A stretch of 37,861 nt of DNA from a virus. A model generated the notes under the pieces. It searched no databases, was not told the origin of the DNA, and saw only the letters and a list, made by a program, of their open reading frames with translations. The position numbers and the translations under genes were made by a program. This document shows positions 1-8,380 of the stretch, in pieces. The stretch spans positions 1 to 37,861 of the IMG/VR virus record IMGVR_UViG_3300034082_002962; one strand, 5' to 3'. Position 1 is the stretch's first letter; every line of letters starts with the position of its first letter.

Positions 1-59
1 ATAACAGAATAGGGATAATCTGCAAGAGCCTTGGCACCCGGTGTTTATGGTATGGCTAC

Positions 60-136
60 CATATTGAAATACACTACACTGGTCTACGTCCAGTTGCGCT
101 TTTGACTTTCATCGCATATAAATGTACTTCAATATG
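60..136 (-). ncRNA. Structured RNA module 1 (long closing stem, two inner hairpins)
   Basis: The two ends form a 16-bp inverted repeat: on the minus strand CATATTGAAGTACATT at the 5' side pairs with AGTGTATTTCAATATG at the 3' side, with two G-U wobbles. Inside are two hairpins: TGCG/CGCA enclosing TGA-AAG-TCA, and ACTGG-7 nt-CCAGT. Closely similar closing arms occur at 858-966 and 2709-2801 and a related one at 6952-7038. The G-U pairs favour the minus strand as the RNA. The function is unknown and no Rfam family was recognised. Confidence 0.6.
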
Positions 137-400
137 ATCGCTCATATCGGTCTTTCGACCTTCCACTGCTTGCAACTGCTCCCCAATTTCCCGTCAATCT
201 GCACCTGTGGTCAGGCAAAGATCCTCATCGGCCTGACCTTCTGGGGTCAGTGATCCTTGGGAAAGGACTGTATGGCCTAAACCTGCCATACCTCAGGCTA
301 TTAAATTTCTGGCCGGTGTTTCACGAGGTTATCTACCGGCCCCACCTCGACGTTACGGCGATTTTTCAGTCACGTGCCTTACTTGTCGCTATCTTATGTA
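137..400 (-). ncRNA. Structured non-coding region with H-type pseudoknot
   Basis: About 260 bases between tRNA-His and module 1 hold no convincing gene but several strong helices on the minus strand. One is an H-type pseudoknot: CGAGGT (349-344) pairs with ACCTCG (329-324), while GGCCGGT (341-335) pairs with ACCGGCC (317-311), in the order a-b-a'-b'. Others are GGTCAGGC/GCCTGACC, GTATGG/CCATAC and a GGTC-GAAA-GACC tetraloop hairpin. The pseudoknot resembles tmRNA PK1 in layout, but there is no tag frame or tRNA-like domain. This is inferred to be a stable phage RNA of unknown role. Confidence 0.45.
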
Positions 401-402
401 CT

Positions 403-478
403 TGGGGTGACTGATGGGACTCGAACCCACAACAACAGGAATCACAATCCTGGGCTCTACCATTGAACTACAGCCACC
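403..478 (-). tRNA. tRNA-His(GTG)
   Basis: The cloverleaf folds with anticodon GTG in a seven-base loop, G-1 opposite C73, and an encoded CCA. It is the last tRNA of the cluster in the direction of transcription, and the structured non-coding region follows directly. Confidence 0.95.
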
Positions 479-483
479 ATTGT

Positions 484-762
484 CTATAGAAACACGTACA
501 GTATGACCGCAAACACAATCAATCCTGTTAAGAACTTTCTTGATGTGCGATGCATTTCTGCAACTGCTTCTTCTTCTGTTTGATACCCAACTGTATACTC
601 ATTCATAATGTATCCATCGAAAGCAATACTTATTGCTATAAACAACACAATATTTTTATGCCCTTGCCAGGAATATCGGGACCGTATTTTCTCAATAAAA
701 TACGAAGAAGAGGTTGCTAGTCTTCTTATATGTGAAAGGGCAAAGACATAAAAATATTGCAT
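484..762 (-). CDS. Hypothetical small membrane protein
   Basis: A 92-residue frame starts at ATG 762, about 40 bases downstream of the promoter at 806-834 and straight after a boxA-like leader. Two hydrophobic stretches, roughly residues 36-52 and 77-92, suggest two membrane segments with a short charged loop between them. There is no clear Shine-Dalgarno sequence before ATG 762; a shorter 40-residue version from ATG 606 would keep only the second segment. No family was recognised. Position and promoter argue that it is expressed, but the start is uncertain. Confidence 0.45.
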   Translation of the reverse strand: MQYFYVFALSHIRRLATSSSYFIEKIRSRYSWQGHKNIVLFIAISIAFDGYIMNEYTVGYQTEEEAVAEMHRTSRKFLTGLIVFAVILYVFL

Positions 763-766
763 CTGG

Positions 767-779
767 TTGTTAAAGAGCG
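767..779 (-). promoter_or_regulatory. boxA-like antitermination site
   Basis: The minus strand reads CGCTCTTTAACAA, matching the boxA core (CGCTCTTTA) of bacterial rrn leaders, where NusB-S10 binds the RNA. It lies about 27 bases after the -10 of the promoter at 806-834, so it is in the leader. A near copy is at 974-986. Confidence 0.6.
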
Positions 780-805
780 TTTACTGCATTACTTACTATA
801 CAACT

Positions 806-834
806 ATTATACTGCTTACTGCATTTCTGGTCAA
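806..834 (-). promoter_or_regulatory. Sigma70-type promoter
   Basis: The minus strand has TTGACC (834-829), a 17-base spacer and TATAAT (811-806). It drives the small membrane-protein frame, tRNA-His and the structured RNA region. It belongs to a family of eleven promoters in the window with the same boxes and identical spacing. Confidence 0.85.
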
Positions 835-857
835 CTCTTTTGTGCGGTTTAACAACA

Positions 858-966
858 CAATATTGAAATACACTTGCTTTCTAAGTCACCCGTTTTAACC
901 TAGCGATTACCAGTATCCGGGTATCATTTCTAGCTTTCGGCCTAGTGCCAATGTACTTCAATATTG
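858..966 (-). ncRNA. Structured RNA module 2, with own promoter and boxA
   Basis: A 17-bp closing stem is made by CAATATTGAAGTACATT (5' side, minus strand) and AGTGTATTTCAATATTG (3' side). Inside are a CTAG/CTAG hairpin and a larger hairpin closed by ACCCG/CGGGT. Relative to module 1 one closing pair changes from C-G to A-U, a compensatory change. The RNA starts about 42 bases after the predicted start site of the promoter at 1015-1043 and follows a boxA-like sequence, so it is probably transcribed as a leader RNA. Function unknown. Confidence 0.65.
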
Positions 967-973
967 CGTCTGG

Positions 974-986
974 TTTTTAAAGAGCG
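974..986 (-). promoter_or_regulatory. boxA-like antitermination site
   Basis: The minus strand reads CGCTCTTTAAAAA, one base from the copy at 767-779. It sits between the promoter at 1015-1043 and structured RNA module 2. Flanking leader sequence is shared with the other copy, so promoter plus leader have been duplicated. Confidence 0.55.
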
Positions 987-1014
987 TTTTTACTGCATTT
1001 CTTACTATACAGCT

Positions 1015-1043
1015 ATTATAGCACCCTGCCCATTACTGGTCAA
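1015..1043 (-). promoter_or_regulatory. Sigma70-type promoter
   Basis: TTGACC (1043-1038), 17 bases and TATAAT (1020-1015) on the minus strand. The first thing transcribed is a boxA-like leader and structured RNA module 2. It diverges from the plus-strand nuclease gene at 1104. Confidence 0.85.
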
Positions 1044-1078
1044 CTCTGTGTGTTGCAGAAAAACAACACTCAAACTGG

Positions 1079-1085
1079 TTAAATA
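1079..1085 (+). promoter_or_regulatory. Possible T4-like late promoter (weak)
   Basis: TTAAATA lies 18 bases before the nuclease start and resembles the T4 late -10 TATAAATA with mismatches. No good -35 is present. Tentative; it would make the plus-strand nuclease a late gene. Confidence 0.3.
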
Positions 1086-1103
1086 TACAACAGGAGATTT
1101 ACA

Positions 1104-1541
1104 ATGAAAAAAATGTTGTTATTGCTTTGCTTAGTACCTATTATCGCTGTTGCACAACCACGCCAACGACCCGGAGTCACTTATGACGCTGTGATCACTA
1201 GAGTAATCGACGGTGACACAGTGGCATTCCAAGCTGACTTTTTGCCGGCTCCGCTCAAACCAGAACTCAGTATTCGTGTGTTTGGCGTTGACACACCCGA
1301 AAAGGGATTTCGTGCCCAATGCCCGTCGGAAGCTGCTAGAGGTGCTGCTGCCACAGAATTTACCAAAAAGGCCATATCTGCTGCACAACACCGACAAATT
1401 GTTCTCATTGACTGGGACAAATACGGAGGCCGTGTGTTAGGTGATGTCTTACTCAACGGACAAAGCCTACGTGGCATGTTGATCCAAAATGGTTTTGCCC
1501 GCGAATACTACGGCGAAGCAAAACAATCTTGGTGTAACTAA
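1104..1541 (+). CDS. Secreted thermonuclease-like nuclease (SNase domain)
   Basis: This 145-residue protein has an N-terminal signal peptide (positive MKK, then a leucine-rich core to about residue 17) followed by a staphylococcal-nuclease fold. Visible signatures are VIDGDTV, then RVFGVDTPE and DKYGGRVLGDV, which supply the two arginines and the glutamate of the SNase active site. It would be a Ca-dependent, sugar-nonspecific nuclease acting outside the cytoplasm. AGGAG stands 7 bases before ATG 1104. It is one of only two plus-strand genes and overlaps the convergent neighbour by four bases at the stop codons. A role in periplasmic nucleic-acid breakdown or exclusion of competing phage is inferred. 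Confidence 0.88.
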   Translation: MKKMLLLLCLVPIIAVAQPRQRPGVTYDAVITRVIDGDTVAFQADFLPAPLKPELSIRVFGVDTPEKGFRAQCPSEAARGAAATEFTKKAISAAQHRQIVLIDWDKYGGRVLGDVLLNGQSLRGMLIQNGFAREYYGEAKQSWCN

Positions 1542-1777
1542 GTTCTACGCATCTTCCAAGTGTATGCTTCACCGCTTGGGAGTCGACCGTCTTCTACTGC
1601 ATCAACACCCATACGACCCACCTGGTTGGGCAGTTCACCTACCATGGCCACATATGCCATACCGATGGTACGCATATGGTTGGCACGAGTCAGTGCTTGT
1701 ACCATTTCTACATAATCTTCACTACGTGCGGAACCATCTTCTGCGGTCCAGTAGACTTTGTAGGTTGTATTCTTCAT
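1538..1777 (-). CDS. Conserved small phage protein of unknown function
   Basis: A 79-residue protein starting at ATG 1777, which overlaps the stop of the upstream homing endonuclease (TAATG). It reads as a small alpha/beta protein: a VYW strand, an SEDY segment, then a C-terminal part with GELPNQVGRMGVDAVEDGR and a basic tail. Proteins of this layout (short N-terminal strand, then a G-x-GVD-x-VE-x-G segment) are common hypothetical proteins in T4-like aquatic phages. No function is known. The gene is convergent with the secreted nuclease. Confidence 0.75.
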   Translation of the reverse strand: MKNTTYKVYWTAEDGSARSEDYVEMVQALTRANHMRTIGMAYVAMVGELPNQVGRMGVDAVEDGRLPSGEAYTWKMRRT

Positions 1778-2313
1778 TATTTGCACTTATCTCCGTGCCA
1801 TCTCTTAAAATTTGCTGGGTCCACAAGTGCGTTGCACTTGGGACAGTTTTTATATTGTGCTTCTTTCCATTCTTCTGAATTTCTAATTTCGGAAATTCTT
1901 TTACCTTGCTGTTTTCTTGATTTATTATTCTTCTGCTTCCAATCCGGATTATTGAATAATACAGAATTTGTCTTCGATATCTTATCTCGTGTTTCGTTAG
2001 TAACAATACTGCCAAACGGAGCTCCGTCGATGCCATTCTCTGGACGCTGATTCGACCAAGATCTATCTTTAACAATATCAAAAAACTCGCTAAAGAATTC
2101 TGCAAACTCAATCAAGTCATCTCGGTTAGTAAAAATGTCTGACACCCATATTGTATCTACGTGTTCTTTGCCGTGGGCTTTTAAATGTTTAAGCCAATGC
2201 CTTCCAGAACCTAAGTATTCGTAGGGATTTTGTTTACAAGTTTTTCCAAAATATCTTAAATTGGTAATTGAATGTTTCTTTATGTACAGAGTTGTTGGAG
2301 TAAAATTGTGCAT
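1777..2313 (-). CDS. GIY-YIG-like homing endonuclease
   Basis: This 178-residue protein begins with a degenerate GIY-YIG core (LYIKKH near residue 9, then RYFGKT, then YLGSGRHWLKHLKAHGK), typical of free-standing phage homing endonucleases. The C-terminus carries a CPKC-x-LVDPANFKRWH-x-DKC zinc-finger-like module often found on such enzymes. ATG 2313 is used; a TTG lies directly before it. It sits between tRNA-Phe and a conserved small gene, consistent with insertion beside the tRNA cluster. No intron is evident. It should cleave DNA in phage genomes lacking the gene. Confidence 0.82.
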   Translation of the reverse strand: MHNFTPTTLYIKKHSITNLRYFGKTCKQNPYEYLGSGRHWLKHLKAHGKEHVDTIWVSDIFTNRDDLIEFAEFFSEFFDIVKDRSWSNQRPENGIDGAPFGSIVTNETRDKISKTNSVLFNNPDWKQKNNKSRKQQGKRISEIRNSEEWKEAQYKNCPKCNALVDPANFKRWHGDKCK

Positions 2314-2332
2314 CAATTACTTATATAATAAT

Positions 2333-2408
2333 TGGTGTCCCTTGCTGGTTCCGACCCAGCCTTTACAGATTTTCAATCTGTCACTTTCACCAGATTAGTT
2401 TAAGGGAC
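2333..2408 (-). tRNA. tRNA-Phe(GAA)
   Basis: Perfect acceptor GTCCCTT/AAGGGAC, anticodon loop TTGAAAA giving GAA, and encoded ACCA. The D arm is somewhat irregular. Confidence 0.93.
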
Positions 2409-2414
2409 TTGTTA

Positions 2415-2502
2415 TGGAGGGCAAGGTGAGATTCGAACTCACGGACCGTTTCCGGCCTTCAGTTTTCAAGACTGATGCAATCGGCCTCTCTGCCACTTGC
2501 CC
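2415..2502 (-). tRNA. tRNA-Ser(TGA)
   Basis: A class II tRNA with acceptor GGGCAAG/CTTGCCC, loop CTTGAAA giving anticodon TGA, a GGCCG-type long variable arm and encoded CCA. Confidence 0.94.
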
Positions 2503-2509
2503 CAAAAGG

Positions 2510-2629
2510 TGAACAAAGATATCTTCACTGCCACGCCCAGATAATGTTACTCAACGGCAGGGGTACGCCACTTGGCGGTTAGGAAAGGTAACCCGTGTGC
2601 ATTTCGCACTGCTCGGATATCTTCGTTCA
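2510..2629 (-). ncRNA. Structured inter-tRNA RNA element (closing stem family variant)
   Basis: The spacer between tRNA-Met and tRNA-Ser is closed by a 14-bp stem, TGAACGAAGATATC with GATATCTTTGTTCA on the minus strand, with one G-U pair. Inside are GTGC/GCAC, GGTTA/TAACC, GCC/GGC and CTGCC/GGCAG hairpins. The stem sequence differs from modules 1-4, but position and design are the same. It holds no reading frame of note. Confidence 0.5.
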
Positions 2630-2634
2630 TTGCT

Positions 2635-2710
2635 TGGTGGTGAAGGAGGGACTCGAACCCCCGACCTTATCCGTATGAAGGATCCGCTCTACCAACTGAG
2701 CCACATCACC
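2635..2710 (-). tRNA. tRNA-Met(CAT), elongator-like
   Basis: Anticodon loop TTCATAC gives CAT, with a normal T arm and encoded ACCA. The acceptor has one T-T mismatch. A second CAT tRNA at 7987 looks like tRNA-Ile2, which leaves this one as the likely methionine tRNA. Its 5' end touches the closing stem of module 3. Confidence 0.88.
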
Positions 2711-2801
2711 ATATTGAAATACACTAGTACCTCTGTCGTTAGATTCAGAGTCTAACGAACAGTATGCGAAAACCAACAACGGTTAATGTATTTTAATATG
2801 G
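2709..2801 (-). ncRNA. Structured RNA module 3 between tRNA-Lys and tRNA-Met
   Basis: An 18-bp inverted repeat closes the spacer: CCATATTAAAATACATTA at the 5' side and TAGTGTATTTCAATATGG at the 3' side (minus strand), with one A-C mismatch and one G-U. Inside are AACC-6-GGTT and an 8-bp hairpin TCGTTAGA/TCTAACGA. The element exactly fills the gap: its 5' arm starts at the CCA of tRNA-Met's neighbour boundary and its outer bases overlap both tRNA ends, tying one tRNA's end to the next. Confidence 0.62.
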
Positions 2802-2990
2802 TAGGACCGCCCAGACTCGAACTGGGATAGACCGGTTAAAAGCCGGATATTCTACCTTTGAATTACGATCCCTTTGTTTTTCTAACTTACGCAAGGCTTT
2901 GTTGCTCTTGCGGTGACTGCCTGCCCCTGTCTTTTTAAGTACCAAACAAACGAAGGGGTTACGTTTGGGTACGGTCAGTTTAGACTTCAT
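2793..2990 (-). CDS. Conserved small basic phage protein running through tRNA-Lys
   Basis: A 65-residue frame starts at ATG 2990 with TAAGGAG 6 bases upstream and a promoter at 3014-3042. The first 39 residues, including KRNPFV and SHRKSNKALRKLEKQ, form a very basic module recalled from small proteins of T4-like phages. The last 26 or so residues are read straight through tRNA-Lys(TTT), with the stop at 2795-2793 after the tRNA. Either a stop codon was lost when the tRNA arrived, or the tail is tolerated. Function unknown; the charge suggests nucleic-acid or ribosome contact. Confidence 0.7.
   Translation of the reverse strand: MKSKLTVPKRNPFVCLVLKKTGAGSHRKSNKALRKLEKQRDRNSKVEYPAFNRSIPVRVWAVLPY
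2799..2872 (-). tRNA. tRNA-Lys(TTT)
   Basis: Stem TCCGG/CCGGT with loop CTTTTAA gives TTT, and ACCA is encoded. It lies wholly inside the 3' part of the small basic protein frame on the same strand, and its CCA is part of the module 3 stem. Confidence 0.93.
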
Positions 2991-3013
2991 GTCTAACTCC
3001 TTATTAAAAAAGT

Positions 3014-3042
3014 ATTATACTGCTGACACCATTTCTGGTCAA
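3014..3042 (-). promoter_or_regulatory. Sigma70-type promoter
   Basis: TTGACC (3042-3037), 17 bases and TATAAT (3019-3014) on the minus strand, 24 bases before the small basic protein start. It would also transcribe tRNA-Lys and module 3. Confidence 0.85.
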
Positions 3043-3072
3043 ATTGACATGTTGTAGAAATACAACACTTTA

Positions 3073-3149
3073 TGGCCGGTCCTAACGGATTTGAACCGCT
3101 AACTTCCAGTTTCGAAGACTGGCACTCTATCCAATTGAGTTAAGGACCG
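3073..3149 (-). tRNA. tRNA-Arg(TCG)
   Basis: Acceptor CGGTCCT/AGGACCG, loop CTTCGAA giving TCG, discriminator G and encoded CCA. Confidence 0.94.
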
Positions 3150-3155
3150 ATTGTG

Positions 3156-3229
3156 TGGCAGGCCTGCTTGGGATCGAACCAAGAATAACGGAATCAAAAT
3201 CCGGTGTGATACCATTTCACTACAGACCA
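3156..3229 (-). tRNA. tRNA-Gln(TTG)
   Basis: Loop TTTTGAT gives TTG, with discriminator G and encoded CCA. The first acceptor pair is T-T, in keeping with the weak 1-72 pair of glutamine tRNAs. Confidence 0.9.
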
Positions 3230-3244
3230 ACAAACTTCTAAAAA

Positions 3245-3329
3245 TGGCTCCGGAGGTTGGATTCGAACCAACGGTGGATTTCTCAACGGATTAACAGTCC
3301 GTCCCCTGCTACCGCTCGGGTACTCCGGA
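3245..3329 (-). tRNA. tRNA-Asn(GTT) with enlarged variable region
   Basis: Acceptor TCCGGAG/CTCCGGA and discriminator G are typical of tRNA-Asn, and loop CTGTTAA gives GTT. The D arm (CCCGAGCGGTAGCAGGGG) and the roughly 13-base variable region look like a class II tRNA of the Tyr/Ser kind. CCA is encoded. Confidence 0.85.
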
Positions 3330-3339
3330 ATAAAAACTA

Positions 3340-3417
3340 TGGTCGGAGATGTAGGATTCGAACCTACGGTCTTCTGGTCCCAAACCAGACGGATTAACCA
3401 GACTTTCCCAATCTCCG
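3340..3417 (-). tRNA. tRNA-Pro(TGG)
   Basis: Stem TCTGG/CCAGA with loop TTTGGGA gives TGG. The acceptor CGGAGAT/ATCTCCG is perfect and CCA is encoded. Confidence 0.95.
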
Positions 3418-3425
3418 AATAAAAA

Positions 3426-3641
3426 TTAAACTTTATTTAATTGTTCAAGAACTTGATCTACTGTTTCTTTAACTTCCCAGGACCCTTGTGTGCCATAAAC
3501 AACAGTGACCTTTTCGTCTGTTTGTTTTTCGGCCGGCCCACGCTTGACAGTGGTTTGAAATACTGACAGCACTATATCACTTCTAACAGCCAAAGGCATG
3601 CCTTTGTATTCTGGTGCATCGTTAGTAAGTCTAAGAAACAT
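3426..3641 (-). CDS. FlbD-like small protein
   Basis: A 71-residue protein starting at ATG 3641 with AAGGA upstream. Its layout (LRLTNDAPEYKG near the start, a beta-rich middle ending in TVVYGTQGSWEVKETVDQV, then a terminal helix) resembles the FlbD family, in which a strand pair is followed by V-x-V-x-E-S/T-V-x-E-V. In phages such proteins are of unknown role. It sits between tRNA-Val and tRNA-Pro in the cluster. The family link is from memory of the pattern, not a search. Confidence 0.65.
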   Translation of the reverse strand: MFLRLTNDAPEYKGMPLAVRSDIVLSVFQTTVKRGPAEKQTDEKVTVVYGTQGSWEVKETVDQVLEQLNKV

Positions 3642-3664
3642 TTTAAATCCTTGTTATTAAAAAT

Positions 3665-3740
3665 TGGTACCGGGTGACAGACTCGAACTGTCATCGCTCT
3701 CCGTGTAAAGGAGACGTATCACCTCTCTACGCAACCCGGC
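3665..3740 (-). tRNA. tRNA-Val(TAC)
   Basis: Stem TCTCC/GGAGA with loop TTTACAC gives TAC. The acceptor pairs fully with one G-U, and CCA is encoded. Confidence 0.94.
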
Positions 3741-3749
3741 ATTACTATT

Positions 3750-3834
3750 TGGTGCCCAGGGAGAGACTCGAACTCTCAATCCTTTCGGCGCTGGCTTCTA
3801 AGACCAGAGTGTATACCAGTTCCACCACCGGGGC
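3750..3834 (-). tRNA. tRNA-Leu(TAG)
   Basis: A class II tRNA; loop CTTAGAA gives TAG, the long variable arm is present, and ACCA is encoded. Confidence 0.94.
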
Positions 3835-3849
3835 ATTTACTAAAAAACT

Positions 3850-3878
3850 ATTATAGCTGAACTGTCTTTGCAGGTCAA
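3850..3878 (-). promoter_or_regulatory. Sigma70-type promoter
   Basis: TTGACC (3878-3873), 17 bases and TATAAT (3855-3850) on the minus strand, just upstream of tRNA-Leu(TAG), tRNA-Val and the FlbD-like gene. It begins at the end of the secreted hydrolase-like gene. Confidence 0.82.
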
Positions 3879-3881
3879 CCG

Positions 3882-4343
3882 CTATTCGTAAAAATCATTT
3901 ACATATTCTTGCATTTTACCATGCGATATGTTGTATACATGTATCCCAGGCGATTGTTGTTGTCTACCTGACTCATCAAAGAAGTTGTCAAAGTTGATTT
4001 CGTAATTGCCAAAGTCTACATCGGTTGTATACCATGCACCTATAGTTAGTACAAAATTGGGCATGCGTTTAACTTTCTTCAGTACCTGCACTATTGCGCT
4101 GGCACCTGCACTAAATCCATACAGCTGATAAGATTTATTTTTTTGATTTATAAAGTTGGCTGCACTGTCTATTTCTTCTGAGTTATACACTAATGAGCAG
4201 GCAGCATTTCGTTCCGCATATCGATCAAACGCTGCTTGGTCAAATGCGCCACCGGCACCACGGAATCCTATGACATAGCTGCTGCACTTGGCTGAACCAA
4301 CAGCCGTATAAAAAACAAGTAATAAAGTTAAAAGTGTTTTCAT
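3882..4343 (-). CDS. Secreted alpha/beta-hydrolase-like protein
   Basis: A 153-residue protein with a clear signal peptide (MKTLLTLLLVFYTAVGSA, likely cleaved before KC or at the following Cys). The mature part contains YGFSAGASA, the G-x-S-x-G nucleophile elbow of alpha/beta hydrolases, near residue 97, and a late HGK histidine. At about 135 mature residues it is short for a full hydrolase, so it may be a minimal or degenerate lipase/esterase-like domain. It lies in the tRNA cluster. Export suggests an envelope target, possibly at lysis. No SD is obvious before ATG 4343. Confidence 0.6.
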   Translation of the reverse strand: MKTLLTLLLVFYTAVGSAKCSSYVIGFRGAGGAFDQAAFDRYAERNAACSLVYNSEEIDSAANFINQKNKSYQLYGFSAGASAIVQVLKKVKRMPNFVLTIGAWYTTDVDFGNYEINFDNFFDESGRQQQSPGIHVYNISHGKMQEYVNDFYE

Positions 4344-4350
4344 AATTGTA

Positions 4351-4428
4351 TGGTACCCCGAGTCAGATTCGAACTGACAGAACTACTCCTTTTGAGAGAG
4401 TCGACTTTACCAATTTGTCCACCAGGGC
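4351..4428 (-). tRNA. tRNA-Leu(CAA)-like with class I body
   Basis: The cloverleaf folds cleanly: acceptor GCCCTGG/TCGGGGT, D stem GAC/GTC, loop CTCAAAA giving CAA, and T stem GTCAG/CTGAC with encoded ACCA. The variable region is only six bases, whereas leucine tRNAs normally have a long class II arm. Its 5' end abuts the stop codon of the 55-residue gene upstream. Confidence 0.82.
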
Positions 4429-4596
4429 TTAGTTTTTTACTGGTACTAGAGCTGTTCTTTTAATTAAGAATACTCGGTGTTCGTTTAGACGCCGCACCGT
4501 GAGATATTCTTCACCTTCGATTACAGATATATTACGAAGGTCATCACACACAACACGCTCGCGAGTTCTGGGATTTTCGAATATAATTGACTTCAT
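4429..4596 (-). CDS. Conserved 55-residue phage protein
   Basis: A short frame from ATG 4596 to TAA 4431-4429, preceded by AGGAG 5 bases before the start. It begins MKSIIFENPRTRERVVCDD and continues with V-IEGEEYLTV and a basic FLIKRTAL end, a small beta-rich protein type recalled from many T4-like phages. It is divergent from the plus-strand gene at 4619, with only 22 bases between the two starts, and stops one base before tRNA-Leu(CAA). Function unknown. Confidence 0.75.
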   Translation of the reverse strand: MKSIIFENPRTRERVVCDDLRNISVIEGEEYLTVRRLNEHRVFLIKRTALVPVKN

Positions 4597-4605
4597 TGCA
4601 ACTCC

Positions 4606-4613
4606 TATAAATA
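4606..4613 (+). promoter_or_regulatory. T4-type late promoter TATAAATA
   Basis: An exact TATAAATA on the plus strand, 5 bases before the ATG of the plus-strand gene. Known T4 late promoters use this octamer as the whole recognition element. Initiation would fall at or next to the start codon, giving an almost leaderless mRNA. Confidence 0.55.
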
Positions 4614-4618
4614 TTTTT

Positions 4619-5554
4619 ATGCAACTAAAACTGATCTTTCCACATTCTCATATTTCAATCGAATTAAAACAGCATCCTACTATTGAAAAATGGTTTAAGT
4701 TTTTTCAGACATTAACTAATAATCAACCTGATTACTATCGTATGTTCTTTTCAGATGAATTTAAACTACTTTTAGGACACGATTCAGTTGATCATAAAAA
4801 ACAATGGAAAATTATTTTAGATTCTATCCACACCATGCGTACAGCGGGTTATACTATACCATTTGATCTGCCAGCCGAATTTGATTTCACCCAATCGATT
4901 CTAAACACTCTACATAGATTTTTTACCTACAACTGCGATTGGTGGTATCGACAGACGACCGAACCAAATCCATTTGATAAAAATTTTCGTCCGCCTGAGG
5001 ATTGGGATTTTGCCAAATGGTATAGTGTTATTGGACAGATAAACGAAGCTGTGCATTGCTTAGAAGTAACTGTAACCACACCTACCAAACTGCTTTATCA
5101 AACCAACAGTGCTGAATGGGTTTTACCCAGTTGGATAATCAATAATCCTGCCAGCATAACCGGCGAATTAATTAAGACCTGTTATTTACCGTTTGATTCC
5201 TACGACCAAAGCTTCAACTATGAACCAATGGATTTTTCTCGCGGTGCCCCGGTCACACTCAATGCCAGCATTTTAGGCAAGTGCATGCTACAGAGTTATT
5301 TTGAAGAAGATGACCCTACAGCTCGAGATGCCAGCGGCAGAGAAGGATCCTATGGCGGTTACTGCATACATCTTAATCGCCGACGCGAAGAGATTTATCG
5401 GTCAGAACATTTTCGTCAATGGGCTGCCAGATATGGTCGCACAGTTGACTCCTTGCCCTTGGAATTTCAAATTGGTCATGTGGTAGGCACCAGCATAGAA
5501 GATCTGTATAAATTTGACCCACAGCGATATATTCGCACTGAGTTCATTGATTAA
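4619..5554 (+). CDS. Unknown 311-residue plus-strand protein, probably late
   Basis: The start at ATG 4619 is chosen because it follows the TATAAATA box and because the region upstream codes for the divergent 55-residue gene. The protein is rich in aromatic residues, with no signal peptide or membrane segment. Visible features are an acidic FDLPAEFDF, a WWYRQ block and a conserved-looking C-terminal GSYGGYCIHLNRRREEIY followed by PLEFQIGHVVGTS. No family was recognised. Plus-strand orientation amid minus-strand tRNAs and a late promoter suggest late expression. No SD is visible. Confidence 0.72.
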   Translation: MQLKLIFPHSHISIELKQHPTIEKWFKFFQTLTNNQPDYYRMFFSDEFKLLLGHDSVDHKKQWKIILDSIHTMRTAGYTIPFDLPAEFDFTQSILNTLHRFFTYNCDWWYRQTTEPNPFDKNFRPPEDWDFAKWYSVIGQINEAVHCLEVTVTTPTKLLYQTNSAEWVLPSWIINNPASITGELIKTCYLPFDSYDQSFNYEPMDFSRGAPVTLNASILGKCMLQSYFEEDDPTARDASGREGSYGGYCIHLNRRREEIYRSEHFRQWAARYGRTVDSLPLEFQIGHVVGTSIEDLYKFDPQRYIRTEFID

Positions 5555-5555
5555 T

Positions 5556-5632
5556 TGGTATCCACGGAGGGATACGAGCCCCCAACCTACGGTTTCGTAA
5601 ACCGTTGCTCTATCCAGTTGAGCTACGCGGAT
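5556..5632 (-). tRNA. tRNA-Arg(ACG)
   Basis: Stem ACGGT/ACCGT with loop TTACGAA gives ACG, the A34 of which is normally read as inosine. Encoded ACCA. Confidence 0.94.
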
Positions 5633-5640
5633 GTAATAAA

Positions 5641-5787
5641 TTCAGGTGCCCCGCTATCCCTTTTGTGGGGACTCACAGGATTGTCTCGTTGAGCAAGTTT
5701 GATCACCGACTTCAGCCATATTGTTTTGTCACGTGGCAGACTGTCACGTTAGACTGGCAGGGACTCTAACTCAACGTCTATCCTGAA
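5641..5787 (-). ncRNA. Structured inter-tRNA RNA element
   Basis: The spacer between two tRNAs has no gene. On the minus strand CAGGAT/ATCCTG (outer) and CGTTGAG/CTCAACG (inner), separated by a small internal loop, close a domain at 5676-5785 that contains an ACGTG/CACGT hairpin. A CCCC/GGGG hairpin lies on the downstream side, and a 6-bp TTCAGG/CCTGAA pair can compete with the outer stem. Same design as the other closed spacers but no sequence match. Confidence 0.42.
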
Positions 5788-5790
5788 ACT

Positions 5791-5885
5791 TGGTAGTAGC
5801 GTAGAGATTCGAACTCTATCGTTGCAGCCCATCTGACCACTCTCCCGGGTTTATAAAACCCAGCCGCATACCAATGCTCGCTACT
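5791..5885 (-). tRNA. Atypical tRNA, Ile(TAT)-like, 95 nt
   Basis: The acceptor AGTAGCG/CGCTACT is perfect, the T arm is TAGAG/CTCTA and ACCA is encoded. A TGGGT/ACCCG stem holds loop TTTATAA (anticodon TAT). The D arm is very short (CAT/ATG) and about 27 bases separate the anticodon stem from the T arm, much more than in an isoleucine tRNA. It may be a hybrid or interrupted tRNA. Confidence 0.6.
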
Positions 5886-5890
5886 ATTTT

Positions 5891-5968
5891 TGGAAGTAAG
5901 GGTGGGATTCGAACCCACGGTTGTAGAGATTTGCAGTCACTTGCCTTGGTCCACTCGGCCACCTTACT
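5891..5968 (-). tRNA. tRNA-Cys(GCA)
   Basis: Acceptor AGTAAGG/CCTTACT with U73 as in cysteine tRNAs, loop CTGCAAA giving GCA, and CCA encoded. The anticodon stem has one T-T mismatch. Confidence 0.88.
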
Positions 5969-5976
5969 ATTATTGT

Positions 5977-6052
5977 TGGTGCTGATGGTGAGGATTGAAC
6001 TCACGACCTCATCCTTACCAAGGATGCGCGACTACCACTGTGCTACATCAGC
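5977..6052 (-). tRNA. tRNA-Thr(GGT)
   Basis: Acceptor GCTGATG/CATCAGC, stem CATCC/GGATG with loop TTGGTAA giving GGT, and encoded ACCA. Confidence 0.95.
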
Positions 6053-6058
6053 GAACCG

Positions 6059-6544
6059 TTATGCTGCCTTTGCCTGCATGTCTAGTACTTCTTTTAGACG
6101 ATCTGCAGCGTACGATGCAGCGAAAGCTTGTGGCTTAACAAAAGGCACAACATTACACATACCTTTGATGTAGCCAATAGCTTCGTTTACCACACATGAA
6201 CTACCATGCAATTCACTTGGGTTGATATCCAAGTGAACTTCTACAATACGATCTTCCAAAACATCTTGCAGCTTTAGGTACAGCTCTGCAATCTTGTACA
6301 CTTCCGTCATTAGTCGCATGCGTGGCTTGTCTTTTTTGCTATCCCAATCACGTTCACGTTGTACTTCGCCGAAAATCTTACAACCGTTGTTACCATTGAT
6401 GTGAACAACGATAGCTAGAGTGTAATCGGCGAACCATGCTCCATCTAAGGAGAATCGAGAACTGTCGCCCCCGATGTAAATCTTGGTACCGGGACCTTGA
6501 GCTTCGATGAACTGCCGTACTTCATCAATGTTAATCTTACGCAT
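6059..6544 (-). CDS. RNase H-like nuclease, YkuK/DUF458-like
   Basis: A 161-residue protein starting at ATG 6544 with GAGAGG upstream. IYIGGDSSR near residue 22 opens an RNase H-like strand with the first acidic residue. The middle carries KKDKPRMRLMTEVYKIAELYLKL, and the end has VHLDINPSELHGSS and EAIGYIKGMCN followed by VKPQAFAASYAAD, matching the pattern of the YkuK (DUF458) RNase H-related family. The substrate is unknown. It is flanked by tRNA genes, so a role in tRNA or RNA handling is possible but only inferred. Confidence 0.78.
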   Translation of the reverse strand: MRKINIDEVRQFIEAQGPGTKIYIGGDSSRFSLDGAWFADYTLAIVVHINGNNGCKIFGEVQRERDWDSKKDKPRMRLMTEVYKIAELYLKLQDVLEDRIVEVHLDINPSELHGSSCVVNEAIGYIKGMCNVVPFVKPQAFAASYAADRLKEVLDMQAKAA

Positions 6545-6586
6545 TATAACCTCTCGTTTGTTAGCGTACTTTTTACTACAAAAACT

Positions 6587-6661
6587 TGGCGGGTCAACTA
6601 GGACTCGAACCTAGAACAAGGGTTTTGGAGACCCACGTGTTGCCAATTACACCATTGGCCC
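6587..6661 (-). tRNA. tRNA-Trp(CCA)
   Basis: Loop CTCCAAA gives CCA on a TGGGT/ACCCT stem. Discriminator G and encoded CCA. One C-A mismatch in the acceptor. Confidence 0.93.
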
Positions 6662-6669
6662 GTAAAACT

Positions 6670-6745
6670 TGGAGCGGGTAAGGAGGCTCGAACTCCTGAC
6701 ATCTTCCTTGGCAAGGAAGTGCTCTACCAACTGAGCTACACCCGC
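6670..6745 (-). tRNA. tRNA-Gly(GCC)
   Basis: Stem CTTCC/GGAAG with loop TTGCCAA gives GCC. U73 and encoded CCA. Confidence 0.95.
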
Positions 6746-6788
6746 ATTAAACTATTTTACTACATACCTTAGTATATAGCAACGAACT

Positions 6789-6863
6789 TGGTGGACCGTG
6801 GGAGAATCGAACTCCCGCTTCATGCTTGCAAAGCACATGTGCTACCACTATCACTAACAGCCC
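6789..6863 (-). tRNA. tRNA-Ala(TGC)
   Basis: Loop TTTGCAA gives TGC; the acceptor GGGCTGT/ACGGTCC pairs with two G-U pairs; encoded ACCA. The usual G3-U70 alanine identity pair is present. Confidence 0.94.
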
Positions 6864-6870
6864 ATAAAAC

Positions 6871-6945
6871 TGGTACTCGGTATTGGTAACGATCCAATAT
6901 CTGCGCCTTATCAAGACGCTGCTAATCCATTTCAGCTAACCGAGC
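6871..6945 (-). tRNA. tRNA-Ile(GAT)
   Basis: Stem GCGTC/GGCGC with loop TTGATAA gives GAT. Acceptor GCTCGGT/ACCGAGT, encoded ACCA. It follows module 4 by six bases. Confidence 0.94.
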
Positions 6946-6951
6946 ATTAAA

Positions 6952-7038
6952 CAATTTATTGAGTACACTGGCAACTTTGATTCGAGCAATAGCGTGTCAT
7001 TGACACTCGATCGTAACTCCAGTGTACTCAATAAATTG
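6952..7038 (-). ncRNA. Structured RNA module 4 (perfect 20-bp closing stem)
   Basis: CAATTTATTGAGTACACTGG and its exact reverse complement (6952-6971 and 7019-7038) close this 87-base element. Inside, a TCGAG/CTCGA stem holds a GTGTC-AAT-GACAC hairpin. The arm shares ATTGA-R-TACACT with modules 1-3, so it is placed in the same family. It lies directly upstream of tRNA-Ile(GAT). Confidence 0.62.
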
Positions 7039-7172
7039 TAGTGGTTGTCCCACTACTGTCCATCTTACTCTTGCTGTTGCCGCCAGCAATTTCACATCCG
7101 GAACCCCGCCCATTCGAGCATGTTTAACGTGGGCTCAAGGTTCTCGTTACCTATTCCACGTACTGCTGAAAA
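7039..7172 (-). ncRNA. Structured non-coding region upstream of module 4
   Basis: No gene is seen here. On the minus strand GTAGTGG-5-CCACTAC and TTGCTG-7-CAGCAA are solid hairpins. GAACC..GCCC pairs with GGGC..GGTTC, and ACGTGG with CCACGT in its loop, which can form a pseudoknot or a competing fold. Together with module 4 this gives about 220 bases of continuous structured RNA. Confidence 0.4.
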
Positions 7173-7200
7173 CAAAAAACCCTAGGGTTTAGCCTAGGGT
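7173..7200 (-). terminator. Rho-independent terminator
   Basis: On the minus strand ACCCTAGG-CTAAA-CCTAGGGT forms an 8-bp GC-rich hairpin followed by TTTTTTG. It ends the short unit that starts at the promoters 7402-7430 and 7484-7512. Confidence 0.85.
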
Positions 7201-7230
7201 CTGTGTAGTTTTGGATATTAGCTTATTAGC

Positions 7231-7392
7231 TCAACTATCCCTTTCTCCACGGACCCGACTCGTTCCCTCTGGTGTGCGATCACTCTTAATATTCAAGCCC
7301 GCAAACGCACACGCTGACCAATAGGCGACTGTGCCTAGTTGGGGCTGTTGTGAGGATATCTGCGAGAGATGTTTAAGTGTGTTCATTTTCAT
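7231..7392 (-). other. Short transcription unit: small RNA or 53-residue ORF
   Basis: Between the promoter at 7402-7430 and the terminator at 7173-7200 a transcript of about 220 bases is expected. It contains an open frame of 53 residues from ATG 7392, but that start would lie only a few bases from the transcription start and has no SD. The frame is basic at its end, has no recognised family, and may be chance. A non-coding RNA is the simpler reading. Confidence 0.4.
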
Positions 7393-7401
7393 ATTAAAGT
7401 A

Positions 7402-7430
7402 ATTGTACTGCAAAGACCATTGCTGGTCAA
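7402..7430 (-). promoter_or_regulatory. Sigma70-type promoter
   Basis: TTGACC (7430-7425), 17 bases and TACAAT (7407-7402) on the minus strand. First promoter upstream of the short unit ending at the 7173-7200 terminator. Confidence 0.8.
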
Positions 7431-7483
7431 CCTGTATTTCTATTTAGTCCTAAGAAATCACTTGTTTAATTTCTTAAAACACG

Positions 7484-7512
7484 ATTGTACTGCAAAGACA
7501 GTTTCCTGTCTA
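7484..7512 (-). promoter_or_regulatory. Sigma70-type promoter (second, tandem)
   Basis: TAGACA (7512-7507), 17 bases and TACAAT (7489-7484). Its spacer end (TGTCTTTGCAG) is nearly the same as in the promoter 80 bases downstream, so the pair looks like a duplication. Confidence 0.65.
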
Positions 7513-7521
7513 CCGGTATTT

Positions 7522-7803
7522 TTATTTAGCTTGTCCAAAAATATTGCTCCACGTGTGCAGCTTTTCTATCTTTCTTTCGGCAGCAGCTTCCAAACCATCT
7601 GCTGAAATGACACCTTCATCAATCAGCAACTTCATCATTGCCATGACATCACCCAACTCTTGTTCCAACATTTCTCTATGCGGAACATTGGTCTTGTAGT
7701 GTTGTGAGTCTATGCCAAACCTGCGGCACTTGCTGACTTCAACAATGACCTCCCCACATTCTTCTTGCAGGATGTCTAGTATTTCTTGTACTGTTTCTTT
7801 CAT
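7522..7803 (-). CDS. MazG-like nucleotide pyrophosphohydrolase
   Basis: A 93-residue protein starting at ATG 7803, chosen for AAGG six bases upstream. It shows the all-alpha MazG/HisE pattern: LQEECGEVIVEVSK near residue 10 gives the E-E-x-x-E metal-binding helix, and LEQELGDVMAMMKLL near residue 48 gives the E-x-x-D second helix. Such enzymes hydrolyse NTPs or dNTPs to NMP and PPi. Phage versions may trim unwanted nucleotides or lower (p)ppGpp. A second, longer MazG-like gene is at 15908. Confidence 0.82.
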   Translation of the reverse strand: MKETVQEILDILQEECGEVIVEVSKCRRFGIDSQHYKTNVPHREMLEQELGDVMAMMKLLIDEGVISADGLEAAAERKIEKLHTWSNIFGQAK

Positions 7804-7813
7804 TTTAACCTTA

Positions 7814-7898
7814 TGGTACGAGAGATGGGACTTGAACCCATAATCCTTACGGCGCAAAATTTTAAGTCTTGTGTGTATACCAATTCCACCACTCTCGC
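7814..7898 (-). tRNA. tRNA-Leu(TAA)
   Basis: A class II tRNA; stem CAAGA/TTTTG with loop CTTAAAA gives TAA. Acceptor GCGAGAG/CTCTCGT, long variable arm, encoded ACCA. Confidence 0.94.
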
Positions 7899-7906
7899 TT
7901 TATTGT

Positions 7907-7981
7907 TGGCCCGGCGTGCAGGAATCGAACCCACATTCTAGAGGTAGAAGCTCTATGTTCTATCCGTTGAACTAACGCCAG
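7907..7981 (-). tRNA. tRNA-Arg(TCT)
   Basis: Stem TAGAG/CTCTA with loop CTTCTAC gives TCT. Discriminator G and encoded CCA. Confidence 0.94.
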
Positions 7982-7986
7982 ATATT

Positions 7987-8062
7987 TGGTGCCCCCGGAG
8001 GGATTTGAACCCCCGACCAAGCGATTATGAGTCGCCTGCTCTCACCACTGAGCTACAGGGGC
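7987..8062 (-). tRNA. tRNA-Ile2(CAT), lysidine type
   Basis: Anticodon loop CTCATAA gives CAT. The whole anticodon arm and the sequence around it (GCAGGCGACTCATAATCGCT) match what I recall of the E. coli isoleucine-2 tRNA, so C34 is probably changed to lysidine by host TilS and reads AUA. Encoded ACCA. First tRNA of the cluster. Confidence 0.85.
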
Positions 8063-8351: not shown

Positions 8352-8380
8352 ATTATAGCTGATGCGTCATTACAGGTCAA
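8352..8380 (-). promoter_or_regulatory. Sigma70-type promoter
   Basis: TTGACC (8380-8375), 17 bases and TATAAT (8357-8352) on the minus strand. It lies in the 59-base gap between the end of the paralogue array and the small membrane protein, and opens the tRNA cluster. Confidence 0.85.

Follow-up and report, generated by a model that had tools for sequence, protein, structure and literature searches.

Two words of the boxA type lie on the minus strand of a linear 37.9-kb IMG/VR virus fragment (the window, meaning the whole analysed stretch of 37,861 bases), raising the question of why a phage would carry, just behind its promoters, a signal of ribosomal RNA (rrn) operons. In rrn operons, NusB-S10 binds to boxA, which is both required and enough to bring in the factors (PMC10250234), and the resulting complex opposes Rho. 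A first-pass annotation had placed boxA words about 20–30 bases past two promoters, in leaders that it took to be duplicates. The words are indeed present, 29 nt (boxA 1) and 27 nt (boxA 2) beyond the -10 box and thus approximately 20 nt from the start site, all transcription start sites in the window being predictions, and the two promoter-to-boxA stretches align with few differences. The features of the two leaders and of the region that follows them are:

1015..1043, minus strand: promoter 1, TTGACC-17-TATAAT with TG before the -10 box, 11/12 consensus matches
974..986, minus strand: boxA 1, CGCTCTTTAAAAA, equal to the E. coli rrnB 16S-23S spacer boxA GCTCTTTAAAAA
855..969, minus strand: structured RNA 1, leader/trailer-type closing helix of ~20 bp (arms 969-947 and 877-855)
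806..834, minus strand: promoter 2, TTGACC-17-TATAAT, 11/12 consensus matches
767..779, minus strand: boxA 2, CGCTCTTTAACAA, equal to the E. coli rrnB leader boxA GCTCTTTAACAA
648..759, minus strand: structured RNA 2, closing helix of ~20 bp (arms 759-739 and 668-648), insert and stem sequence unlike those of RNA 1
484..606, minus strand: small ORF of 40 aa with a hydrophobic C-terminus, downstream of boxA 2; similar small protein (by eye) in the viral contig L111
403..477, minus strand: tRNA-His, 301 nt downstream of boxA 2, in the minus-strand tRNA cluster 403-8062
55..400, minus strand: further structured RNA after tRNA-His, partly conserved in L111, L015, L041 and L124; no Rfam match

The boxA 1 word (985-974) and the boxA 2 word (778-767) are both exact over the 12-nt boxA, and are identical to the pair in E. 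coli K-12 rrnB (L347), where GCTCTTTAACAA stands in the leader and GCTCTTTAAAAA in the 16S-23S spacer; the comparison is with E. coli boxA, and the boxA of the phage's own host may differ. Both copies stand in the predicted leader of an untranslated RNA unit, with helix-closed RNAs and tRNA-His downstream. A scan of both strands of the window for boxA near promoters, as proposed in the first-pass annotation, found GCTCTTTAA only twice, at boxA 1 and boxA 2, each after a strong promoter. Three other equally strong promoters in the first 9.5 kb all lack boxA; promoters at 8380 and 3042 lead into short ORFs, and the promoter at 3878-3850 starts a short tRNA unit in which the tRNA begins 16 nt past the -10 box, with no boxA. 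Such words could have arisen by chance, or could be conserved for a role in the promoter or in tRNA processing, the likeness to boxA being incidental. AT-rich words are common, and the promoter, boxA and stem base were duplicated in the window while the RNA inserts differ, so the two leaders amount to one independent occurrence. Against a chance origin, the exact word GCTCTTTAAMAA is expected only 0.003 times per window under a first-order Markov model, the match spans the full 12-nt boxA, and permuted or reversed words gave no matches or far fewer in the comparisons that follow.

To see the word in other phages, we used 80 related loci fetched with an unrelated window protein (6059-6544, PHROG 11311), which together contain 1186 tRNAs. 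Full GCTCTTTAAMAA occurred seven times in these loci, each time 25–31 nt ahead of a tRNA, with no occurrence at any other place; boxA-like words frequent at non-leader positions would have spoken against the first-pass reading, and this distribution upholds it. The form NTTCTTTAAMAA was found near a tRNA 14 times and elsewhere four times. The shorter core TCTTTAAMAA lay 18–35 nt before a tRNA at 24 non-redundant places in 26/80 loci, and occurred 18 times elsewhere, whereas 400 permuted words gave a mean of 0.06 near-tRNA places in the same loci; the sole permuted word above 1, CTTTAAAMAT with 11 places, is boxA shifted by one base. No recognised boxA lies near a tRNA in 54/80 loci, and most individual tRNAs of the related clusters lack a boxA. 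Counted over whole sequences, GCTCTTTAA is not enriched in the relatives (17 occurrences versus a permutation mean of 12), and the boxA signal in these phages is one of position, not of frequency. We also observed units in six contigs (L204, L236, L242, L258, L262 and L271) in which an intrinsic terminator is followed approximately 10–25 nt later by boxA and then by a tRNA, with no promoter between; these terminator-boxA-tRNA units are not explained by a simple promoter-leader model.

Two further, independent tests used a collection of viral sequences. When the collection was scanned for boxA followed by N56-86 and a tRNA T-loop, 77 viral contigs matched and a permuted word gave 0; the boxA-to-tRNA distance was 24–28 nt in 63/76, and boxA was found ahead of at least 11 tRNA kinds, with Gln and Glu the commonest. 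A promoter followed by GCTCTTTAA was present in at least 119 stretches, versus 24 for the reversed word. Among the matches listed, 34/59 non-redundant promoter-boxA leaders continue with [AC]AA to give the full boxA, for which the chance value is 2/64. These 34 full-boxA leaders have a tRNA within 1 kb in 13 cases, belong to loci with three or more tRNAs in 17, and lie inside an ORF of at least 80 aa in only two. The same word stands before tRNAs and before unrelated structured RNAs alike, which, together with the rrn-like upstream hairpin of many leaders described below, makes chance or mere resemblance a highly improbable explanation. Capture of the arrangement from proteobacterial host tRNA operons was considered and rejected: 257 Gb of genomes yielded only 46 matches to the same boxA-tRNA pattern, mostly in Bacteroidota and Marinimicrobia and with distances scattered over 13–49 nt, suggesting that boxA is not a common tRNA-operon feature simply taken from proteobacterial hosts.

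Several other promoter-boxA leaders run into recurrent unidentified sequence families that resemble structured RNAs. In L090, L098, L094, L083 and similar contigs, distinct RNA-like families follow directly after the promoter and boxA, mostly with no tRNAs nearby, and these are candidates for new structured RNAs. Rfam models identified only GOLLD, Betaproteobacteria-1 and a group I intron in the boxA-led contigs, none of them directly after boxA. The GOLLD RNA (RF02032, 200.6 bits) occupies positions 6851-7312 of L146, and a promoter-boxA leader lies approximately 3 kb upstream in the same contig.

Leaders homologous to those of the window (TATAAT...ATAGTAAG.AATGCAGT...boxA) were found in L111, L041 (twice), L204, L096, L128 and L151. 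What follows their boxA varies: in the window and L111 it is a helix-closed RNA, in L041 tRNA-Gln and tRNA-Glu, and in L151 tRNA-Cys. That boxA is kept while the downstream RNA is interchangeable suggests that it belongs to the leader and not to any one RNA. In Xanthomonas phage X1, whose host is known, a hairpin and GTTCTTTAAAAA lie 28 nt before the first clustered tRNA, and the boxA variant GTTCTTTAAAA occurs both in this phage and in L041. This was the only one of five named-phage regions with boxA near a tRNA: the regions fetched from Stenotrophomonas DLP_6, Vibrio nt-1 and Vibrio 1.081.O had none there, and the region from Synechococcus BUCT-ZZ01 has no annotated tRNA. Nucleotide BLAST of the window and L041 leaders against named phages returned only short chance or tRNA matches.

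The first-pass annotation had likened the words to the boxA of both rrn and lambda nut sites. In many phage leaders boxA comes 0–4 nt after the end of a hairpin, whose loop is often of the GNRA type (GTTAA-GAAA-TTAAC, GCTGA-GAAA-TCAGC and GCGTTAA-GAGA-TTAACGC are examples), and although the hairpin sequences vary, the pairing is kept. In a shuffle test the upstream hairpin reached p<=0.05 in 42% of leaders, versus 1/9 in a small control set. E. coli rrnB likewise has a hairpin immediately before each boxA. In lambda nut, boxA is followed by the boxB hairpin, which is bound by the phage N protein. The likeness to lambda is that a phage boxA would, for the window phage, recruit the host's NusB-S10; the difference is that here the word has the rrn form and the hairpin, if any, precedes boxA, and between each window boxA and its closing helix we found no boxB-like hairpin, nor was an N-like protein noticed in the window, which is only a fragment. 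The hairpin-then-boxA order of many relatives, with the identical rrnB words, thus bears out the rrn half of the comparison and makes 'lambda nut-type' the wrong description. The window differs from rrn in that no firm hairpin precedes its boxA (its leader allows only a weak hairpin, which would begin at or before the predicted start site) and no boxC-like element was identified.

Taking together the boxA sequence, its place behind promoters, the way in which many phages conserve it ahead of tRNAs and structured RNAs, and the hairpin that comes before boxA in many of these phages, we consider it likely that the window words are genuine rrn-type boxA elements in the 5' leaders of two phage units, consisting of helix-closed RNAs and then the tRNA region, where they would recruit rRNA-type Nus factors (NusB-S10), a function that we infer. 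As in many other phages with tRNA genes, boxA here stands just behind promoters of the phage's own untranslated RNAs, and the phage probably makes these RNAs with machinery that the host dedicates to rRNA transcription. NusB-S10 binding, Rho resistance and a role in tethering or folding are attributed to the phage boxA by analogy with known systems, and events could run as follows. Host RNA polymerase would start at the sigma-70-type promoter, and boxA, emerging approximately 20 nt from the start, would bind the host NusB-S10 (NusE) pair. This pair would nucleate an rRNA-type elongation complex with NusA, NusG and probably SuhB and S4, which may block Rho and tether the 5' end of the RNA to the polymerase, allowing it to read through the untranslated tRNA and structured-RNA genes. 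With the leader tethered, the closing helix would also pair more readily with its partner downstream, in the manner of pre-16S rRNA. A bacterial precedent comes from Legionella, where boxA GTTCTTTAAAA added upstream of an untranslated CRISPR array raised the precursor RNA approximately 10-fold and relieved polarity (PMC7862264). Like the CRISPR precursor, the tRNA and structured-RNA transcripts of phages are untranslated, and the same benefit from boxA would be expected.

Alternatively, boxA could serve mainly as an aid to folding and maturation and not as an antiterminator, the Nus complex holding the leader on the polymerase while the closing helix forms and RNase III cuts, as has been argued for the pre-16S leader-trailer helix. 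Each window boxA lies immediately 5' of a helix-closed RNA, the closing helices of RNA 1 and RNA 2 (predicted folds of -42.8 and -41.0 kcal/mol) following it directly, so that the order of promoter, boxA and leader-trailer-type helix is that of pre-16S rRNA (PMC10250234). The units are short (~115 nt), and antitermination on its own would hardly seem necessary for RNA 1. Moreover, E. coli boxA mutants have just 2–3 fold less 30S activity, while the leader-trailer helix is essential (PMC10250234), and stem pairs vary with compensation among related stems: the stem type ATATTGAAGTACATT...AGTGTATTTCAATAT of RNA 1 recurs at window positions 55-141 and 2706-2804, and is also present in L005, L041, L111, L155, L187, L204 and L218, several of its pairs differing in a compensatory way. 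However, most other phage boxA elements directly precede tRNAs, without such a closing helix, and the helix-closed elements at window positions 55-141, 2706-2804 and 6951-7039 have no boxA. A mainly folding role is therefore possible but somewhat doubtful as the explanation of the whole pattern; as an addition to the antitermination that we favour, a role in folding and processing is plausible wherever a closing helix comes right after boxA, the window leaders being an example.

Two further readings concern what the leader RNA might do other than promote its own elongation. As decoys, abundant short boxA RNAs could bind NusB-S10 and weaken host rRNA synthesis. Two copies of boxA at the extreme 5' end of short, probably stable RNAs would suit this, and competition between a boxA RNA and rrn is conceivable in principle, but the fixed spacing of 24–28 nt between boxA and tRNA in most other phages suits a role in cis and would be unneeded by a decoy, making this reading improbable. 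In E. coli suhB, a functional 5'-UTR boxA represses translation (PMC5725501), and boxA 2 might similarly repress the small ORF at 606-484, readable in L111 too, when Nus factors are plentiful. This is very improbable: 160 nt and a helix-closed RNA separate boxA from the ORF, and related leaders have the same boxA before tRNAs with no ORF. The suhB case resembles ours in being a non-rrn boxA within a leader, and differs in that it represses translation of a protein gene, while the RNAs downstream of phage boxA are mainly untranslated.

Compared with known systems, the phage elements share identical 12-nt words with rrn, and many relatives share its promoter-hairpin-boxA order, but rrn boxA serves 16S and 23S rRNA, whereas phage boxA serves tRNAs and short structured RNAs. 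The boxA leaders of bacterial CRISPR arrays, described by Stringer et al. as cited in PMC7862264, likewise lie close to a promoter from which a long untranslated RNA is made, and GTTCTTTAAAA is shared with L041 and X1; those leaders belong to bacterial arrays, and the phage leaders to tRNA or structured-RNA units. The first-pass annotation knew of no boxA in phage tRNA clusters, and in agreement with this, the openly licensed papers searched place boxA in rRNA, suhB, other protein genes and CRISPR arrays. We found no report of boxA in phage tRNA or structured-RNA operons in these papers, and an earlier mention elsewhere is possible. The signal itself is known; what appears to be new is that it recurs as a leader module in front of the untranslated RNAs of phages. 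More broadly, it is conceivable, though we put this forward tentatively and short of probable, that many tRNA phages of boxA-using, probably proteobacterial hosts carry mimics of the rrn leader (promoter, hairpin, boxA and sometimes a closing helix), which would put their tRNAs and structured RNAs under an elongation and folding complex of Nus factors and SuhB otherwise reserved for rRNA, so that phage RNAs and ribosomes would compete directly for NusB-S10 in their synthesis. It is rarely asked how large phages keep Rho from stopping transcription through long untranslated runs of tRNA and structured-RNA genes, and a widespread, recognisable boxA would offer a direct, testable answer. It would also add phage RNAs to rRNA, suhB and CRISPR arrays as targets of the rRNA Nus complex, and provide a way to locate the starts of phage RNA operons and the new structured RNAs that follow boxA.

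The window has 22 tRNAs identified by ARAGORN on the minus strand (403-8062) and one extra tRNA at 2336-2408 identified by Rfam, whose search of the window returned tRNAs only and no other known RNA family. The RNAs with the ATATTGAAGTACATT / AGTGTATTTCAATAT stem form a cassette family with no Rfam entry, in which a closing stem of ~15–20 bp is common and the inserts are unrelated; the window has three such cassettes, at 55-141, 855-969 and 2706-2804, all on the minus strand. In L111, several cassettes of this family alternate with tRNAs and tRNA-like sequences within 3.6 kb. Two stretches of this contig (~3200-3090 and 2230-1950, minus strand) have a T-arm, with the rest odd or interrupted and interleaved with helix-closed cassettes, and are possibly split or degenerate tRNAs. 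The RNA after tRNA-His (window 1-400, minus strand) contains the motif ATAAGATAGCGAC.AGTAAGGCACGTGACTGAAAAATCGCC, which is 90% identical over 101 nt in L111 (2503-2403), and another part of it is 82% identical in L015 (276-417); it probably represents a new RNA family of phages and is truncated where the contig ends. A perfect 21-bp stem-loop at 6951-7039 (minus strand) lies beside a long structured region at 7040-7400, and this region is conserved in L003, L004, L009, L088, L017 and L024 with 68–90% identity.
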